Source of the DNA: a virus | IMG/VR virus record: IMGVR_UViG_3300046559_000137 | Span: 1 to 21,975 of that record | Length of the DNA: 21,975 nucleotides | Strand: one strand, 5' to 3' | In this document: piece after piece, positions 6,594 to 21,975 of the stretch | Layout of the letters: every line of letters begins with the position of its first letter | Position numbering within the stretch: the first letter of the stretch is position 1 | Notes under the pieces: generated by a model | The model's input: the letters and a program-made list of their open reading frames with translations, nothing else | What the model was told of the DNA's origin: nothing | Databases searched by the model: none | Translations under genes and position numbers: made by a program

Positions 6594-8063
6594 ATGCCGT
6601 TAATCTCAAGGAAAATCGGATCAGCTTCACAGATACTTGAAGTGTTTGTGAACGACGCCACTGTCTCTACCGGGGCGGGGTTAGCCAATATCGTCGCCTC
6701 TTCTGTGACCTTTGCGTGGTTCAGAAGCAACATGGCGGCGGTGTCCTCTGGGACGTGTACCACAGGGACTTTGGGGACGTTCGGTGTGTCCTCTTTTGTC
6801 CAGGCTCTCTCTACAAACGCTTTGGGTTGGTATCAGTTCTGTCCTCCTGACGGGGTTTTCTTATCAGGTAGTTCAGCGGCGATACATCTAAGTCTCGCCC
6901 CTTCGATGGCTCCTCTACCGATTTTGATTGAACTCACGGCGACTGATAATCAGACCGCGATGTCCAGTCAGACCATATCTACTTTCCTGAGTGGGTCTGT
7001 GAACGCTTCTACGGTCGCTGATAAAGCTGGGTACGGAGTCTCTTCAGTTAATACCGGGGTTAACGTAACCTCAGTGGTTAACAGTCCTGCGGTCACAACG
7101 GCGGCGGGGATTCAAGCGGTAGCCTGGGATTTGGGGAGGACTGCAAACCTGACAAGCACGCTCGCCCTAACGGGGTTTTCTATAAACCTCGCCACTACCG
7201 CGACGTTCCTGACGACCAACAACGACAAAGCAGGTTACGGGGTTTCCTCCGTAAATACGGGGGTCAATGTTTCCTCGGTGAACGGATCAGCGATAGTCAC
7301 CACAAGCCCCGGAGTCATTACCGCAAACGTGACCTCTGGGGTTGGTGTGTCATCCTTTGCCATAGCCGTAGGAGTCTCTTCTGTAGCTGACAAATCCGGG
7401 TATGGCGTCTCGTCTGTGAATACCGGGGTTAATGTGACTTCGGTTGTCGGGACGGCGGCGGTGACGACTCAAGCCGGAATCTTCGCCACGGTCTTTGATC
7501 TTGGTAGGACGGCGAATCCAAACTCAACCGTTGCTTTCAGTTCGCTCTCGATCTCAAGTCAGTCGGTCTCTATAGGCGCGGTGAACGTCACCTCGGTTAA
7601 TGGGTCGGCGATAGTCACTACCAGCCCTGGTGTAGTAGCAACAGGGTGGGACTTGTCGAACATCCTGAACCCTACAAGCACGGTCGTTCTATCGGGGTTG
7701 TCTTTCTCGAACGTAACTACAGTCTCAGGCGGGGTGACGGTCAATACCAACAACGACAAAACAGGATATTCAGGATCAGTGAATGTCTCCTCGATGGGAG
7801 TCAACGTCACTACAGCTACAAACTTGGATAAGACCGGATACGCGACTACCGACTTTACGACTGCTCTTGCGGAGTCCTACCGTGGGGTAAATGCCACAGG
7901 CACCCCGGCACAGCTACTGTATGAGCTTGTAGCGAACATCACCGAAGCCTCGAACTCTGGGACGACGAGGACTTTGAATAGCGTAACAAGCCATCTACCC
8001 GGTGCGGTGACTTACGGATATGACTCCTCCACTTCACCCAGCCTGATTTCGAGGACCGCATGA
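6594..8063 (+). CDS. Repetitive beta-structured virion/fibre-like protein (489 aa)
   Basis: ATG 6594 directly follows the preceding stop. Residues 1-120 form a domain of a kind common in environmental phages: STGAGLANIVASSVTFAWFR, then WYQFCPPDGVFLSGSSAAIH, then a PILIELT strand. Residues 143-416 are imperfect repeats built from DKxGYGVSSVNTGVNVTSV units, WDLGRTANxTST units and NGSAIVTTSPG units. The C-terminal 60 residues contain GTPAQLLYELVANITEASNS and end SPSLISRTA. The architecture suggests an elongated fibre or head-fibre protein with an assembly domain at one end. There is no catalytic motif and no receptor-binding domain that I recognise. The following gene overlaps by ATGA. Confidence 0.65.
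   Translation: MPLISRKIGSASQILEVFVNDATVSTGAGLANIVASSVTFAWFRSNMAAVSSGTCTTGTLGTFGVSSFVQALSTNALGWYQFCPPDGVFLSGSSAAIHLSLAPSMAPLPILIELTATDNQTAMSSQTISTFLSGSVNASTVADKAGYGVSSVNTGVNVTSVVNSPAVTTAAGIQAVAWDLGRTANLTSTLALTGFSINLATTATFLTTNNDKAGYGVSSVNTGVNVSSVNGSAIVTTSPGVITANVTSGVGVSSFAIAVGVSSVADKSGYGVSSVNTGVNVTSVVGTAAVTTQAGIFATVFDLGRTANPNSTVAFSSLSISSQSVSIGAVNVTSVNGSAIVTTSPGVVATGWDLSNILNPTSTVVLSGLSFSNVTTVSGGVTVNTNNDKTGYSGSVNVSSMGVNVTTATNLDKTGYATTDFTTALAESYRGVNATGTPAQLLYELVANITEASNSGTTRTLNSVTSHLPGAVTYGYDSSTSPSLISRTA
7020..7841 (+). repeat. Degenerate in-frame repeats in the fibre-like gene
   Basis: DKxGY begins at codons 143, 211, 266, 388 and 412. The first three copies continue into GYGVSSVNTGVNV(T/S)SV with 52-68 residues between starts. 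A second unit, (W/F)DLGRTANxxST, recurs at about codons 178 and 301, with a weaker WDLSNILNPTST at 352. NGSAIVTTSPGV recurs at 230 and 336. The DNA copies differ mostly at third codon positions (for example around 7027, 7231 and 7393), so protein sequence has been kept while DNA drifted. Confidence 0.85.
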
Positions 8064-9860: not shown

Positions 9861-11069
9861 ATGTCTCAACAGGTACTACTTACTCCATCGATCATCACCA
9901 AAGAAAGCCTGGTGATCCTGGAGAACAACCTGGTTGCGGCGAACAGGGTGAACCGGAAGTTTGAGAATCAGTTCGTAAAGATCGGGAATTCTCTCACCAT
10001 TCGGAAGCCCAACCGCTTCACGGTTGCCAACGGGCCGGGACTTCAGGTTCAGGATATTGCTGAGCCTTCGGTCTCGATTACCATCAACAAACAGAAGCAA
10101 GTAGCCTTTCAGTTCACCTCTCAGGACTTGACCCTTACGGTTGAAGAGTTCTCAGAGAGATACCTGAAACCCGCTATGGCAGGGATGGCGAACCAGATCG
10201 ACTTCGACGTGCTCCAGAACTTCTCGGGGGTATCCAACTTTGTTGGTACTCCGGGGACGACTCCGGCGTTCTTCTCGACCTCGATTCAACTGGTTGGTCA
10301 GAGGCAGGATGAAAACGCGGCCCCGCAAGACAACAGGACGATGGTGTTTAATCCTGCGGCTTACTGGTCGATTTCAAACAGCCTCACGGGTAGTTTCGTA
10401 ATGCCCACCGCAAAAGAAGCCCTGGTAAAGGGTTATCTGGCAACGGTAGGGAATTACGAGGTGTATATGGACCAGAACATTCCTTCGGTCTCTTCGTACA
10501 TCCACATCTCTTCCAACGCTCTAGTCTCTAACGCCCCTGCTTCTCAATCGGGGTCTTCGATCTCCACTGTCGGGTTTAATTCGACCGACGTGTTCCAGAT
10601 CGGAGAAGTGGTGACTTTCGGTACGGTGTTTGCAATCAATCCCCAGAACAGACAGTCCACGGGGTCTTTGAAGAACTTCGTCATTACCGCCACCACCCAG
10701 CCGGGCGCGGCGTCTACTGCCGTACTTCAAATCTCCCCCGCGATGGTCACATCTGGACCGTATCAGAACGTTACCAACGGGACAGTTTCTACCGCTTCAG
10801 GGAAAGTTTCTCTAGTTAGTGGTTTTGCCACAGCAGCCTCGACGTTCGTGCAGAACCTCGCATTTACTAGAGATGCATTTGGTCTGGTGATGGTGCCTCT
10901 TGAAATCCCTCAAGGGGTGGACTTTGCGGCCAGAGAGACTTACAGAAACATCTCTATGAGAGTCATCAGGGCATACGACATCAACAACGACGTGTTCCCG
11001 ACTCGTATTGATACTCTGTACGGAACCACGGTCTACTACGACGAACTTGCCGTTCGTCTAGGAGGTTAA
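9861..11069 (+). CDS. Major capsid (coat) protein, P22 gp5-like
   Basis: AAGGAG (9849-9854) precedes ATG 9861. The 402-residue product has the P22 coat pattern: N-terminal helix and E-loop region (SLVILENNLVAANRVNRKFE, IGNSLTIRKPNRF), then the spine-helix region (FQFTSQDLTLTVEEFSERYL, AGMANQIDFDVLQNF). An inserted beta-rich region at about 225-320 (DVFQIGEVVTFGTVFAINPQ ... ISPAMVTSGPYQNVTNG) matches the expected I-domain. The C-terminal end (FTRDAFGLVMVPLEIPQGV, SMRVIRAYDINND, PTRIDTLYGTTVYY) is a strong family signature. It builds the icosahedral shell with the scaffold. A phage GroES lies two genes downstream, which fits the GroEL dependence known for this class of coat protein. Confidence 0.93.
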   Translation: MSQQVLLTPSIITKESLVILENNLVAANRVNRKFENQFVKIGNSLTIRKPNRFTVANGPGLQVQDIAEPSVSITINKQKQVAFQFTSQDLTLTVEEFSERYLKPAMAGMANQIDFDVLQNFSGVSNFVGTPGTTPAFFSTSIQLVGQRQDENAAPQDNRTMVFNPAAYWSISNSLTGSFVMPTAKEALVKGYLATVGNYEVYMDQNIPSVSSYIHISSNALVSNAPASQSGSSISTVGFNSTDVFQIGEVVTFGTVFAINPQNRQSTGSLKNFVITATTQPGAASTAVLQISPAMVTSGPYQNVTNGTVSTASGKVSLVSGFATAASTFVQNLAFTRDAFGLVMVPLEIPQGVDFAARETYRNISMRVIRAYDINNDVFPTRIDTLYGTTVYYDELAVRLGG

Positions 11070-11070
11070 T

Positions 11071-11289
11071 ATGGCTACTACAAGCCAAGCAGTAAAACAG
11101 CTGTCCGATCAGAACTCCCAGGGTACCGTTTTGGGAGCGGCTTCAACCGATCTGATCGGTTTCTACGGAGTCACCACCGGAGCCACGAAACAGACCGCTA
11201 CAGGGTCGATTTCGTCCGGCGCGTTGGCTTCGAGTTTGTGTACGGCTCTTAGCACTATGGGGTTGATTAACGTCACCTTCAGCGCCTAG
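11071..11289 (+). CDS. Small protein following coat (72 aa), possible head accessory
   Basis: AGGAGG (11060-11065) lies five bases before ATG 11071, so translation should be high. The product MATTSQAVKQLSDQNSQGTV...LGAASTDLIGFYGVTTGATK is small, uncharged and Ser/Thr/Gly-rich. The pattern SDxNSxGTxLG...DLIGFYG recurs directly after coat genes in many uncultured phages. A minor head or decoration role fits the position and the strong ribosome binding site, but this is inference. The gene ends five bases before a strong hairpin. Confidence 0.65.
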   Translation: MATTSQAVKQLSDQNSQGTVLGAASTDLIGFYGVTTGATKQTATGSISSGALASSLCTALSTMGLINVTFSA

Positions 11290-11336: not shown

Positions 11337-11639
11337 TTGAAACTTGATCCGTTGAGCGACATAGTAGTCATTAAACGAGCGGAGTATTCCGACATCTCCG
11401 ATTCTGGGATTGTGTTACCCGAGTCTGTTGACATTACAGAAGACATTGGTTACGTGAAATGGTGTGGTAAAGGTAAGAAGACTCCCAAGGGTCAGTGGCC
11501 GATGGAAGTAAAACCCGGAGATAAGGTGATTTTCTCTACCAACGCCCACATGGTGAAATACATCGAAGGAGAGGAATACATTGTCACCCGACAAGACTCA
11601 ATCATCGGAATCATTGATGATGCTTCAGCACTACTTTAA
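11337..11639 (+). CDS. groES: GroES-like co-chaperonin (Cpn10)
   Basis: TTG 11337 is the start, with AAGGAG at 11326-11331. The 100-residue product is the right size for GroES and follows its pattern: MKLDPLSDIVVIKRAE, then the mobile loop YSDISDSGIVLPESVD with the hydrophobic Ile25-Val26-Leu27 that contacts GroEL, then GYVKWCGKG, VKPGDKVIFS and EEYIVTRQDSIIGII. Family knowledge: GroES caps GroEL, and T4 gp31 replaces it to fold a phage coat protein. The position just after the coat gene suggests the same job here with host GroEL. The substrate is inferred. Low start-codon strength with a strong ribosome binding site may tune the level. Confidence 0.9.
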   Translation: MKLDPLSDIVVIKRAEYSDISDSGIVLPESVDITEDIGYVKWCGKGKKTPKGQWPMEVKPGDKVIFSTNAHMVKYIEGEEYIVTRQDSIIGIIDDASALL

Positions 11640-11751
11640 GAAGATATACGAGGCTCACGGTATGCCTGGAGTCTGCTATTGGTTCCATGCGATAGGGCTT
11701 CCCCACGAACCACAAGGTTGCAAATACTGCGAGGATAAAGTTGATGGCTAA
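11617..11751 (+). CDS. Small Cys/His protein (44 aa), possible zinc-binding
   Basis: An ATGATG at 11617 lies inside the groES end (23-base overlap), and the frame runs to TAA 11749-11751, overlapping the glycosyltransferase start by eight bases. GGAA at 11608-11611 is a plausible ribosome binding site. The product carries VCYWFHAIGLPHEPQGCKYC: three Cys (one CxxC pair) and two His in 20 residues, a good candidate for a single zinc site. The frame is open only in this reading, and both overlaps match the local style. Partner and role unknown. Confidence 0.5.
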   Translation: MMLQHYFKKIYEAHGMPGVCYWFHAIGLPHEPQGCKYCEDKVDG

Positions 11752-13960
11752 GGTTTCTGTATGCGCTTCGGTTCTGAATCAATCCGAATGGTTGGTGGAG
11801 ATGATCGAATCTGTGAGGGCTCAAACCCTGACAGATTGGGAGATGCTTCTTGTCGATGATGGGTCAACCGAAGACATCAAAGGGGTGATAGAAAAGATCA
11901 ACGACCCTCGTATAAAACTGACGGTCTTCCCTAAAAACCTAGGTATTCCTCACGGGATAAACTGGGCCTTCCAACACGCTACTGGAGACTTTATTCAACC
12001 CCTGGCGGCGGATGAAAAGCTCCATCCTTCAAAGTTCGAGGATCAGGTCAAGTTTCTAGATGAGAACCCAAGAGTAGATTGTGTGTGGGGACTGCCTCAA
12101 TACTCGAACGGAAGGACGGTTCAGTGCAGAGAAATGGGTCCGAGACCTTCGTGGGAGCAGTATTTCATGAAGGCTCACAACAGATCGCAGGAGTCTTGGC
12201 TTAAAACCCTTCTGTTACTTGAGCAAGTGCCTCTGGGGAGTTGTTCTGCTTTGTGGAGAAGGTCAGTCTTCGAATCCATCGGGTATTTCGATCCCAACCT
12301 TAACATCTTCACGGACCACGAATGGTACTGCCGGTTCTTCGAAAAGCACGAGGGAAGAGTCCTGCCGGTCAGATGGGCCGTTTGTAAAGAGGACATCAGT
12401 AATTCGGTGAGGGCGAAAAGCTCCGAAGAGAAGGCCCAGGAAGAGCTTAAATCCGTGAGAGAGAGGCACAAGCTGCTACTTCCTCCTGTGACGGGGAAGG
12501 TCACGATAGGCATTCCATGTTTCAACATGGCTAACTACCTGCCCGATTCTGTGGGGTCGGCTCTCAAACAGACCTTTGAAGACTTGGAGATCATAGTCCT
12601 TGATGATTGCTCTACGGACAACATCGCACAGGTCATGGGGGAGTTCTCAGACCCAAGGATCAAGTTCATCAAGTTCGATGAAAACCGTGGTCAGATGGAC
12701 GCGCAAAATGCGATGTTAGCTATGGCTGAGGGAGAGTTTTTCATTCCCCTGTCGGCGGATGACACCCTCGACCCAAGGTTCGTCGAGAAATGTCTAGAGG
12801 TCTTTAAAAAGAATCCGTTCACTGAATTCGTCTCCACACAGACTGACTTTATTGACAATGAGGGTAAGGACTTCCCCGACAAAAACCATCCGTTCTATTC
12901 CATCCCAAAGGCTTCAAACAGGACTCAAGACCAGTGGAAGGAACAGTTCTCAAGGTCGAACGTCTATTTTGGTGTGGGGATGTACCGTACTTACTCCGCA
13001 AGGGAAGTCGGAGGGTGGGACAAGAAACACGGGGTCATTTCAGATTATGAGATGTATCTGAAAATGATCCACCGGGAGAATATCCAGATAGTGGAAGAAG
13101 CTTTGACTCATACGAGAATCACCGGGAAGAATCAATCCATCCTGACCCCGGAACAGGCAAAAGCTCTCCCGCAGATGTATGCGGATGCTAAGAAGCCCTA
13201 TCTCCCCATGAGAACGAAGGTCATCATAGCGACACCTTTTTACGAACTCAAAGGCTTCAGTCCCTACATCTCAAGCATGGTCCATGTAGTCAAGCTTCTG
13301 ACTCAAATGGGGGTGGAGTTCGAGTTCTGGGAGCTTTCTGGTGATTCTTACGTACACCGGGCGAGAAACACGATCTGCGCTAGGTTTCTAGAAGACCCCG
13401 CCGCTACTGACTTGTTTTTCATCGATTCAGACATGCAGTGGAATCCCGAGGCTTTAGTCAACATGATATTCCTACCCGAAGACGTAATCGGTGGGTCGTA
13501 TCCGGTTAAAAACAACTGGGCCTCGTGGACTTCAATTCCTGAGTTCGAACAAGGGGAGGATGGGAAGAATCACCCCAGAGGCAGAATCCTCCCCGATGGG
13601 ACTGCCTTACTGAAAGCTTATGTAGTCGCTGGGGGTTTCTTGAGGATCAAACGAATAGCTCTTGAGAAGTTCAAAGAGAAATACCCCGACCTTTGGTACA
13701 ACGAGCCCTCAGCCGATCCGTCAAATCCGACCCGACGGTATCACTCGTTCTTCATGAGTCAAGTAGAAGACCATCTGCTTTATGGGGAGGATATGTGGTT
13801 CTCCAAGAAAATGAGAGAAGCAGGTCTAGAGACTTGGATTTACCCCAACGTCAACATGGGGCATTACGGGGTGAAGGGGTGGACGGGTAACTATCACGCC
13901 TTCCTCTCGGGAGCCAAAGATACCCGAGACTCACCGGAGTTCAACACGAAAGTTCACTAA
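11744..13960 (+). CDS. Three-domain glycosyltransferase (two GT2 domains plus a third GT-A-like domain)
   Basis: ATG 11744 has GAGG upstream at 11731-11734. The 738-residue product reads as three nucleotide-sugar-binding domains in a row. Domain 1 (about 1-245): VSVCASVLNQSEWLVEMIES, LLVDDGSTED, the DxD-like LAADEKLHP and TDHEWYCRF. Domain 2 (about 250-485): VTIGIPCFNMANYLPDSVGS, IIVLDDCSTDN, PLSADDTLDP and ISDYEMYLKM. Domain 3 (about 490-725): KVIIATPFYELKGF, FFIDSDMQWNP (Asp561/Asp563), VVAGGFLRIKR, GEDMWFSKKMREAG and NMGHYG. Each has its metal-binding acidic pair and a likely catalytic acidic residue, so all three look active. No membrane segment is seen, so it is probably cytoplasmic. The gene sits between capsid and neck genes. 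It may build a short glycan on virion or host surface; donor and acceptor are unknown. Confidence 0.88.
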   Translation: MAKVSVCASVLNQSEWLVEMIESVRAQTLTDWEMLLVDDGSTEDIKGVIEKINDPRIKLTVFPKNLGIPHGINWAFQHATGDFIQPLAADEKLHPSKFEDQVKFLDENPRVDCVWGLPQYSNGRTVQCREMGPRPSWEQYFMKAHNRSQESWLKTLLLLEQVPLGSCSALWRRSVFESIGYFDPNLNIFTDHEWYCRFFEKHEGRVLPVRWAVCKEDISNSVRAKSSEEKAQEELKSVRERHKLLLPPVTGKVTIGIPCFNMANYLPDSVGSALKQTFEDLEIIVLDDCSTDNIAQVMGEFSDPRIKFIKFDENRGQMDAQNAMLAMAEGEFFIPLSADDTLDPRFVEKCLEVFKKNPFTEFVSTQTDFIDNEGKDFPDKNHPFYSIPKASNRTQDQWKEQFSRSNVYFGVGMYRTYSAREVGGWDKKHGVISDYEMYLKMIHRENIQIVEEALTHTRITGKNQSILTPEQAKALPQMYADAKKPYLPMRTKVIIATPFYELKGFSPYISSMVHVVKLLTQMGVEFEFWELSGDSYVHRARNTICARFLEDPAATDLFFIDSDMQWNPEALVNMIFLPEDVIGGSYPVKNNWASWTSIPEFEQGEDGKNHPRGRILPDGTALLKAYVVAGGFLRIKRIALEKFKEKYPDLWYNEPSADPSNPTRRYHSFFMSQVEDHLLYGEDMWFSKKMREAGLETWIYPNVNMGHYGVKGWTGNYHAFLSGAKDTRDSPEFNTKVH

Positions 13961-14691
13961 TGGCCGTCTCTGCGAACGACCTGATTACCCGCTCGATGAG
14001 GGCTCTCCAAGCCTTGGGGGGTGGAGAAGTCCCTTCCGCTTCGGAGGCGAACGACGGACTGACGGCTTTAAACGCGATGCTTGATAGCTGGTCGAATGAG
14101 AACCTGACGGCCTATGCGGTACTTGAAAACTCGTTCGTTCTTTCACCGGGGACCAATTCATACACCATAGGGTCTGGTGGGGTGATTAACGTCACCCGTC
14201 CTTTAAGCATCACACAGGCTTACGTCCAGGACTCCAGTGGGAACAACTTCATCATGCAAATCCTGCCGAGGGACAAGTGGAACGAGATCGGGGACAGAAG
14301 CACGAACATCACTAGCCAACTACCGGATACGATGTTCTACGACCCTCAGTTTCCCCTAGGGGTCATCAACATCTTCCCGACACCTCTACTTGGGTATACG
14401 GTATTTTTCGACTCCCTACTTCAGCAGACTACTTTTGCGAGTCTGACGACTAATCTAGCCATGCCTCCGGGGTATGAGAGGGCGATGGTCTACAACCTCG
14501 CGGTTGAGATTTCCAACATGTTTGGTATACCAATACCTCCGGCGTCTCCGGGATCAAAGAATGTCGGTCAGTTGGCAATGGAGTCTCTAGGGAATATCAA
14601 GAGAACAAACATCAGAGAGAACATCGCAGACTACGACCCCAGCATCGTTTCTCGGTCTTACTACACCTACAACATCTATCGGGATGTGTAA
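13960..14691 (+). CDS. Head-to-tail connector / head completion protein, P22 gp4-like
   Basis: The TAATG overlap at 13960 fixes the start. The 243-residue protein has the family N-terminus (ANDLITRSMRALQALGGGEV, then PSASEANDGLTALNAMLDSW), then SPGTNSYTIGSGGVINVTRP and the PPGYERAMVYNLAVEI segment near residue 170, a set typical of gp4-like adaptors. In P22, gp4 binds under the portal after packaging and is the platform for gp10. The gp10-like gene lies one gene downstream here, separated by a methyltransferase. No separate enzyme motif is visible in this protein. Confidence 0.85.
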   Translation: MAVSANDLITRSMRALQALGGGEVPSASEANDGLTALNAMLDSWSNENLTAYAVLENSFVLSPGTNSYTIGSGGVINVTRPLSITQAYVQDSSGNNFIMQILPRDKWNEIGDRSTNITSQLPDTMFYDPQFPLGVINIFPTPLLGYTVFFDSLLQQTTFASLTTNLAMPPGYERAMVYNLAVEISNMFGIPIPPASPGSKNVGQLAMESLGNIKRTNIRENIADYDPSIVSRSYYTYNIYRDV

Positions 14692-15230
14692 TGAGGGAAC
14701 TGCCCAGTGGGAATCATTTCTTCGCACAGGACGAAGTGGAGTTCGATGAGATTCTCAAGATAATGAAAGACTCGAAATCCATGCTTGAAATAGGTTCTAG
14801 GTATGGAGAGTCTTTGAGACGTTTTGCAAGAGCGATGACCCCTAGGAGCAGGGTCGTCTCGGTTGACTTAGGTAAGGACATAGACGCGCAGAGCTATCAT
14901 TCCGGCCCGTGGTTATACAAGGTCTGTGGAGACTTAGCCGATGAATACGACATTCATTTGTTCTTGGGCGACTCTCAGGATCAGAAAATAGTAAATCAGG
15001 TGGAGAAATTGGGACCATTCGATTTCGTTTTCATAGATGGGGATCACTCCTACAAAGGGGTGAATCTTGATTGGATCAACTACGGGCCTTTGGGGAAGAT
15101 GGTTGCCTTTCACGACTGCGCTCCTCACGGTCCTGCATCTGAGACGTTTAAATCTATCTACAAGAAAAAGCAACTGATCTGGAACGCTCCTAGTGGTATG
15201 GGGATTGGCGTGATTTACAATGAGGGTTAA
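14691..15230 (+). CDS. SAM-dependent methyltransferase (Methyltransf_24-like, class I)
   Basis: ATG 14691 overlaps the preceding stop (TAATG). The 179-residue product has class I fold motifs: MLEIGSRYGESLRRFA (31-46) as the SAM-binding Gly loop, VVSVDLG (55-61) with the ribose-contacting acidic residue, FDFVFIDGDHSYKGVNLDW (110-128), and GKMVAFHDCAPHGP (135-148). The IDGDHSY plus HDC pair is characteristic of the methyltransferase family related to CmcI and to sugar or natural-product O-methyltransferases. The substrate is unknown. It is inserted between gp4-like and gp10-like genes and overlaps the latter by 11 bases, so it should be co-expressed with late genes. It could methylate the glycan made by the upstream triple glycosyltransferase. 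Confidence 0.85.
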   Translation: MRELPSGNHFFAQDEVEFDEILKIMKDSKSMLEIGSRYGESLRRFARAMTPRSRVVSVDLGKDIDAQSYHSGPWLYKVCGDLADEYDIHLFLGDSQDQKIVNQVEKLGPFDFVFIDGDHSYKGVNLDWINYGPLGKMVAFHDCAPHGPASETFKSIYKKKQLIWNAPSGMGIGVIYNEG

Positions 15231-20904: not shown

Positions 20905-21004
20905 AAGATCAGGTCTTTACGACCCCGAAGAGGAATTCGCTTGGGATATGGACAACAACTATCCTCTAGACCCTGATGATGAAGAAGGCGAGGAAGGTGA
21001 ATAG
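20885..21004 (+). CDS. Acidic microprotein (39 aa)
   Basis: ATG 20885 lies 20 bases inside the end of the preceding gene, and the frame ends at TAG 21002-21004, overlapping the next GTG by one base. About 17 of 39 residues are Asp or Glu: PDDERSGLYDPEEEF, AWDMDNNYPLDPDDEE, GEEGE. Such a peptide could mimic DNA or mask a basic protein surface. Its last codons also form the GAGGAAGG ribosome binding site of the ATP-grasp gene, so part of its sequence is constrained by that role. No family recognised. Confidence 0.5.
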   Translation: MTMPDDERSGLYDPEEEFAWDMDNNYPLDPDDEEGEEGE

Positions 21005-21975
21005 TGCATGTTCTCCTTATTGATACCGATTCCTGCGGATTGGACATAGCCTACCGTGCGAGTGAAGCGGGGCATAAAGTCAGGCATTGGATACCTAAAG
21101 AGGGAAAGGTCGTCTCCCGCGATGGTTTTGGATTCGTTGGAATTGAGAGAGTTGACGAGTGGAAACCGCACATGGATTGGGCTAAGTCCGGGCTCATCGT
21201 CAACCTGTATAACGGGAAAGTTACAAAAGAGCTCGAAAGGTATCGTGAGTACGGATTTCCTGTATTCGGTCCCTCGGTCAAAAGTGCAGACCTTGAGGTC
21301 AAAAGGCAGTCAGGTATGCAGGCCCTTGAAAAAGAGGGGGTGAAAGTCCCTCCCTACAAGACGTTTCAAACGCTTCAAGAAGCTATGGCGTATGCGAAAA
21401 AGCAAGACAAACGGCTGGTCTTCAAGACCCTCGGGGATGAAGAGGACAAGTCGTTATCCTACTGCGCACACGATCCTGAAGACATGGTATGGCGGATCAA
21501 CTCCTGGATCGAGCAAGGAATGACCCTGAAGGGTCCGTGTATGCTTCAGGACTTCATCGAGGGTATAGAGGTAGGGGTTTCAGCCTGGATGGGCTCTGAG
21601 GGGTTCCTTAAACCAAGGAACGTAAATTTCGAGTTCAAAAAACTTATGAGCGAGGACTATGGACCAGCAACGGGAGAGATGGGAACGGTATGCAAGTATG
21701 TGGATGAATCCAAGTTGTTCACGGAAACTCTGGGTCCGATGGAGGCAACCCTACGCAAACTGGGACACTTGGGGGACTGTGATCTCAACTGTATCGTTAC
21801 CGATCACGGACCTTATTGTTTGGAGTTCACCAACCGATTTGGATGGCCCTCGACGCAAATCCTCTTTGCCAGTCACAAGGGCGATCCGATTAAATGGATG
21901 AAGGATGCTCTTGAAGGGAAAGACTCCCTCGAAGTCGATCAAAGAACAGCGATTGGTGTTCTCATGGCCGCGCCG
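21004..21975 (+). CDS. PurD-like ATP-grasp ligase (3' end beyond window)
   Basis: The frame is open from GTG 21004 to the window end (324 codons, no stop). GAGGAAGG (20990-20997) is the ribosome binding site. The N-terminus (HVLLIDTDSCGLDIAYRASE) looks like the Rossmann-like N-domain of glycinamide ribonucleotide synthetase, followed by YGFPVFGPSVKSADLEVKRQ. The ATP-grasp part has RLVFKTLGDEEDKS (Lys141), MLQDFIEGIEVGVSAW (180-195), FKKLMSEDYGPATGEMGTV (211-229; compare PurD's GPNTGGMG) and YCLEFTNRFGWPSTQ (271-285; compare PurD's LEFNxRFGDPE). PurD ligates phosphoribosylamine and glycine; this enzyme may use another amine or acid. The usual metal-binding Asn of ExN is Thr276, with Asn at the next position. 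It follows the ejection genes, so it is probably a late gene. Confidence 0.82.
   Translation, partial: MHVLLIDTDSCGLDIAYRASEAGHKVRHWIPKEGKVVSRDGFGFVGIERVDEWKPHMDWAKSGLIVNLYNGKVTKELERYREYGFPVFGPSVKSADLEVKRQSGMQALEKEGVKVPPYKTFQTLQEAMAYAKKQDKRLVFKTLGDEEDKSLSYCAHDPEDMVWRINSWIEQGMTLKGPCMLQDFIEGIEVGVSAWMGSEGFLKPRNVNFEFKKLMSEDYGPATGEMGTVCKYVDESKLFTETLGPMEATLRKLGHLGDCDLNCIVTDHGPYCLEFTNRFGWPSTQILFASHKGDPIKWMKDALEGKDSLEVDQRTAIGVLMAAP

Follow-up and report, generated by a model that had tools for sequence, protein, structure and literature searches.

The window analysed here, a 21,975-nucleotide stretch of viral DNA (IMG/VR record IMGVR_UViG_3300046559_000137), encodes a 738-residue protein predicted to combine three glycosyltransferase (GT) domains in one soluble viral polypeptide, and its gene lies downstream of the major capsid protein (MCP) gene of a P22-like podophage (Table 1). 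Three intact domains (D1, D2 and D3), selection acting on each of them, linkage to a slot beside the capsid gene, a stepwise series of architectures and sugar-making genes in relatives are what the computational analysis found. The explanation that we favour, at somewhat better than even probability, is a capsid-linked trifunctional enzyme that would attach a short sugar chain to one of the virion proteins. We infer this acceptor from the gene position, from the precedent of the archaeal virus enzyme A197 and from a Ser/Thr-rich protein encoded nearby.

Table 1. Coordinates of the glycosyltransferase, its motifs and associated genes (window positions unless a contig is named).
Feature	Coordinates	Strand	Remarks
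Major capsid protein, P22-like (phrog_283)	9861..11069	+	E 4.5e-70; upstream of GT
72-aa Ser/Thr-rich protein	11071..11289	+	32% S+T; between capsid and GT
GroES-like co-chaperonin	11337..11639	+	Pfam Cpn10, E 1.1e-18
Glycosyltransferase ORF	11744-13960	+	ATG 11744 to TAA 13960; 738 aa, uninterrupted
D1, GT2 domain	residues 1-250; 11744..12493	+	Pfam PF00535; PDB relatives K4CP, SpsA, TarS
D1 metal site D90-E91	12011..12016	+	Invariant in 25
D2, GT2 domain	residues 251-488; 12494..13207	+	Pfam PF00535; K4CP E 2e-26; orthologue of the single GT2 in two-domain forms
D2 metal site D339-D340	12758..12763	+	Invariant in 29
D3, GT-A domain, phrog_1574 / STIV A197-like	residues 489-738; 13208..13957	+	phrog_1574 E 3e-27; structure model; A197 matches
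D3 DXD motif D561-S562-D563	13424..13432	+	D561 and D563 unchanged across 65 D3 domains
D3 catalytic xED motif E682-D683	13787..13792	+	D683 invariant in 65; E682 in 28/29
D3 C-terminal metal His H707	13862..13864	+	Invariant in 65
phrog_12985 gene, probable head-tail adaptor	13960..14691	+	Downstream slot border; junction TAATG, start overlaps GT stop by one base
Methyltransferase (Methyltransf_24)	14691..15230	+	E 1.1e-10; weak RMNT_CmcI match; candidate sugar O-methyltransferase
Ten-gene nucleotide-sugar operon of relatives	G002 L174:13862-19532 and L175:12-1842; G006 L193:11969-19991		

Domain make-up and integrity of the three-domain protein

D1 and D2 match Pfam Glycos_transf_2 in two stretches (E 1e-57; 195 bits against a cut-off of 23.3) and share about 25% identity, in keeping with the initial annotation, which had called both clearly GT2-like and similar to each other. 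D3 falls outside this family and matches phrog_1574, listed as of unknown function. A search of NCBIfam returned GT2 matches only, all of them below cut-off, and when the window was scanned for repeats, a single result concerned this protein, the similarity between the DXD regions of D1 and D2 (D5 of that scan). No membrane segment was detected, no 19-residue stretch having a mean hydropathy above 1.3. The predicted full-length model has a pLDDT of 88.9 and a pTM of 0.83. Identical copies of the protein are present on contigs of other metagenomes, at full length in L002, L003 and L004 and partially in L007 and L008, and therefore the ORF is not an assembly fusion, an origin also ruled out by 25 distinct homologues. 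The same domain order, for which the initial annotation had suggested searching, was found in a full-length homologue 73% identical to the window protein (L005) and in these 25 distinct three-domain relatives.

The conserved nucleotide-binding Asp, the metal Asp and the catalytic acid are present in both GT2 domains. In alignment A3, D38, D39, D90 and E91 of D1 are kept in 25/25 sequences and D191 in 24/25; D339, D340 and D434 of D2 in 29/29 and D288 in 28/29; and D561, D563, D683 and H707 of D3 in 29/29. The acidic metal pair noted earlier for these domains is thus present in D1 and D2, as D90-E91 and D339-D340, but not as a textbook DXD motif, whose first Asp is replaced by Ala or Ser in both domains while the second is retained (aligned to 'LDSDD' of the chondroitin synthase K4CP). 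For D3, the earlier positions of DSD (561–563) and GED (681–683) hold, whereas GHYG lies at 706–709, one residue before the 707–710 first given. Values of dN/dS, given only where dS could be estimated, range from 0.02 to 0.21 in each of the three domains, all of which are under purifying selection. The kept motifs and these ratios rule out a dead remnant, in line with the initial annotation, which had seen none: metal and catalytic residues persist, with single exceptions, in the 25 three-domain relatives, and the domain-level comparison did not reveal the loss of donor sites in two of the three domains that it had named as contrary evidence. As far as can be read from sequence, these data support a cytoplasmic enzyme with three active sites, encoded within the virion operon.

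The tandem arrangement of D1 and D2 resembles that of K4CP (2Z86/2Z87), which also has two consecutive GT2 domains and to which both D2 and D1 are most similar in sequence. The pair could accordingly be a bifunctional polymerase that makes a repeating chain, with D3 serving for priming or linking, instead of an enzyme adding exactly three sugars. K4CP is indeed the best PDB match over both domains (residues 1–489, Z 25.5); over 438 residues of the pair, however, the rmsd is 12.8 Å, which may reflect a different domain arrangement or orientation, and K4CP is a bacterial polymerase that lacks D3. Moreover, forms consisting of one GT2 domain and D3 exist without D1, and tandem GT2 domains also occur in enzymes that do not polymerise, so that we regard a polymerase as improbable.

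D3 was described in the initial annotation as a different lineage, and this lineage can now be named. Predicted alone (pLDDT 93.2, pTM 0.90), the domain is confidently modelled as a GT-A fold, and alignment shows DXD, xED and a C-terminal His; structure prediction had been recommended there. The closest solved structure is A197 of the archaeal virus STIV (2C0N; Z 18.7, rmsd 2.3 Å over 164 residues, 23% identity), followed by LH3 (Z 16.9), then by ColGalT1, Mimivirus R699 and Mnn9 at about 14.7, and by GT2 enzymes near 12. Both LH3 and ColGalT1 transfer sugars onto proteins. A profile built from 65 D3 domains (A4) matched the A197 sequence with an E-value of 9e-9, with no further match below 0.1, and a PDB sequence search with a single D3 sequence gave no match. 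Given that fold and profile converge on the same protein, the modelled domain is assigned to an A197-like GT-A lineage. A197 is likewise a viral enzyme with a single GT-A domain, but it stands alone, without GT2 domains, in an archaeal icosahedral virus; it is essential there and is a candidate glycosyltransferase for the STIV coat protein (PMC10551542). D3 is also a clear member of phrog_1574, and differs from the family as annotated in having a GT-A fold, a motif set and a capsid-linked context. The assignment would give this family a function and link it with capsid genes as well as with an archaeal virus enzyme that is essential.

The capsid-side slot and the stepwise architectures

Among loci recruited through the GT with at least 600 bp of upstream sequence, near-identical contigs included, a P22-like MCP gene lies 5′ of the GT gene in 35/35 three-domain and 4/4 two-domain cases, at a distance of 343–2344 bp. 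The placement between capsid and neck genes that had been proposed for the window is borne out, with the P22-like MCP gene upstream and a probable adaptor gene downstream. In the phages of six three-domain genes, MCP identity to the window falls to 27–30%, yet their GTs are 48–55% identical to the window's, and in the capsid tree the three-domain genes fall into two separated lineages (capsids about 29% identical). Considering that the slot is the same in both lineages, the GT gene appears to have moved between capsids and yet kept its position, transfer into the same slot being the simplest reading of this two-lineage pattern. L123 and L158 carry the two-domain form, with MCPs 49–51% identical. 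The position beside the capsid gene would also be explained by the timing of expression or by a site permissive for cargo genes.

The distribution of D3 is broader. P22-like phages that are more distant have D3 alone in this slot, and its homologues also lie 3′ of unrelated MCP families, namely phrog_334 (L139, L144) and phrog_1328 (L149, L151, L157). In several cultured phages, D3 relatives are found in replication or other regions, away from capsid genes; they are near clamp-loader genes in DLP_6, Ochrobactrum OC and Rhizobium RHph_I1_18, and in early regions in others. No D3 match was present in the slot of some phages with related capsids, and within the window's capsid lineage the MCP C-termini showed no obvious difference linked to architecture. 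In two contigs, just 3′ of a capsid gene, D3 is fused to a C-terminal methyltransferase-like domain (L139:5971-7413, L164:4956-6233).

Among bacterial genomes there was a single match, a two-domain form on a Nitrosomonadales metagenome-assembled genome (MAG) contig that itself carries a phage MCP gene. A bacterial cargo gene was rejected on this basis, and the match is insufficient for naming a host.

Three forms coexist: D3 alone, GT2 plus D3 (L123, L126, L128, L158) and D1 plus D2 plus D3. In the domain tree, D2 groups with the single GT2 domains of the two-domain forms (support 98/99), while D1 forms a separate clade (100/100) apart from both, so that the tree does not support a recent duplication of D2 as the source of D1. 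Given that the single GT2 is the orthologue of D2 and that D1 stands apart, D1 was probably the last domain to join; with the long branches of the outgroups, it may stem either from another GT2 or from an old duplication. With its three stages in comparable slots, this series lets one follow how a multi-step enzyme of a virus grew.

Sugar genes, neighbouring genes and the proposed activity

Epimerase-family genes are present in 6/6 of the relatives' contigs of at least 38 kb. Two relatives (G002 and G006) encode a ten-gene nucleotide-sugar operon upstream of the terminase gene, comprising SIS, transaldolase, epimerase, cytidylyltransferase, PfkB kinase, epimerase, SDR, UDP/GDP-sugar dehydrogenase-like, TPP enzyme and methyltransferase; partial versions occur in G001, G004 and G008. 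Judging by the family names, the operon may be heptose-like. The sequence of the window phage could be extended 9.3 kb upstream by a 99.95%-identical contig, and the operon was not found in its known sequence, this extension included; adjoining the terminase gene are instead a radical-SAM/SPASM gene, a PhyH-like dioxygenase gene and an RmlD-like fragment (L190:3612-5726). The sugar-making genes of the relatives, together with the capsid-side GT, suggest that these phages make a small sugar chain, most likely on their own particles.

The same genes would also suit sugars of lipopolysaccharide (LPS) or capsule, at least the heptose-type ones (SIS, PfkB, cytidylyltransferase, epimerase), and D1 and D2 resemble bacterial polysaccharide GT2s, D2 matching polysaccharide synthases and GtrB-like families best. 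It could thus be argued that, during infection, the target is a glycan of the host surface (LPS, O-antigen or capsule), whose modification would block re-adsorption of the phage or superinfection. Yet neither a GtrA flippase (0/8) nor an integrase was found in the contigs of eight relatives, which may be incomplete, and GtrB-type serotype conversion differs further in that the GT described here has no membrane helices, in agreement with the earlier remark that this is not a lysogenic-conversion locus with a flippase. The fixed position in the virion operon across two capsid lineages and the sole bacterial match, on a MAG contig that itself has the phage capsid gene, also argue against modification of the host surface, which we consider unlikely.

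A third alternative is that the domains glycosylate hypermodified bases of phage DNA. There are reports of glycans being built on DNA by GTs of phages (Pyle et al. 2024, as cited in PMC12619734; YerA41, PMC9023294). Nevertheless, no thymidylate-synthase-type base hydroxymethylase was detected in the contigs of seven relatives, which may be incomplete, and in this clade the gene sits among capsid rather than replication genes. A role on DNA is thus very improbable.

The genes next to the GT are compatible with a virion target. The 72-residue protein encoded between the MCP and GT genes is richer in Ser and Thr than the other counted virion genes (10–19%) and is the short form of a Thr/Ala-rich repeat protein of 350–570 residues in relatives (L048:1495-2559, L081:7211-8548, L126:4229-5935), with similar N- and C-terminal motifs; family searches with the repeat-rich forms gave nothing that explains their fold or repeats. 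It is a candidate capsid decoration protein and a candidate glycan acceptor. Genes suited to sugar tailoring are also found nearby: methyltransferases recur beside these GTs or fused to them, a sugar C-methyltransferase (L126:7506-8750) and a B12-binding radical-SAM protein (L132:6744-8015) follow D3-type GT genes directly, and the slot of L039 contains a sugar epimerase.

Under the favoured explanation, the protein would be a soluble, cytoplasmic, trifunctional glycosyltransferase whose production coincides with that of the capsid proteins, late in the infection cycle. Each domain would use its own nucleotide-sugar and metal. D3, as the putative oldest occupant of the slot, would most likely act on a virion protein, either the Ser/Thr-rich protein or the capsid protein itself, after which D2 and D1 would lengthen the first sugar into a short glycan, possibly capped by the methyltransferase encoded nearby. 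In several relatives, phage-encoded nucleotide-sugar genes would supply part of the donor pool. The phage might benefit from a head coated with glycans, through altered adhesion, stability or recognition. Acceptor, order of the three steps, donors and benefit are all proposed here on indirect grounds, and the addition of three sugars in sequence, which the initial annotation had suggested, is likewise a proposal.

Three further features of these genomes were noted. A GroES-like gene between capsid and GT is conserved throughout the clade. In the late region of the window, an open-ended ORF (21004–21975) has an ATP-grasp match (GARS_A, E 3e-11). DNA repeats of 54–57 nt, 61–78% identical, occupy positions 7125–7703 within a 489-residue ORF of unknown function (6594–8063).

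Relation to known glycosylation systems

Capsid enzymes with three GT domains are already known from chloroviruses, and glycosylation of virions from mycobacteriophages. Protein A111/114R of PBCV-1 is likewise a single soluble viral protein in which three GT domains are joined; it has been assigned the building of three of the sugars in the glycan on the major capsid protein (PMC7826918). It belongs to a eukaryotic algal virus and, compared by description, its domains are a GalT, a XylT and a FucT, whereas the present protein, from a tailed phage, joins two GT2 domains to an A197-like one and is encoded next to the capsid gene. Considering both A111/114R and multi-GT phage proteins in BFVD, the architecture is less singular than the initial annotation implied. 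In mycobacteriophages (Che8 and relatives), phage GTs are reported to decorate capsid proteins (Freeman et al. 2023, via PMC11256854 and PMC12619734); the phage type is unrelated, and the GT genes there are separate and described as lying near the 3′ end of the genome in Maravista.

The open-access literature, as far as it was covered, yielded no phage protein with three GT domains. For P22-like podophages, the novelty appears to lie in several features taken together: an A197-like domain joined to GT2 domains, a conserved position beside the capsid gene, architectures that grow step by step, and sugar genes carried by the phages. If the virions are glycosylated, these phages carry the assembly enzyme and, in some cases, donor synthesis, making autonomous phage glycosylation directly testable. 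More tentatively, and as a possibility to which we give clearly less than even weight, a widespread P22-like lineage may bear a three-sugar, possibly heptose-containing capsid glycan made by one trifunctional enzyme, which would have arisen in steps from a single-domain A197-like transferase and be supplied in part by a phage-encoded donor operon. In that case bacteria would harbour a glycosylation pathway run by the virus itself, a counterpart of the chlorovirus one.

Proteins of uncultured Caudovirales in BFVD (e.g. A0A6J5T3W3 and A0A6J5LLV3) also contain several GT-A domains, which had gone unremarked; they are longer (1119–1443 residues) and overlap little in structure with the window protein (TMq up to 0.32).
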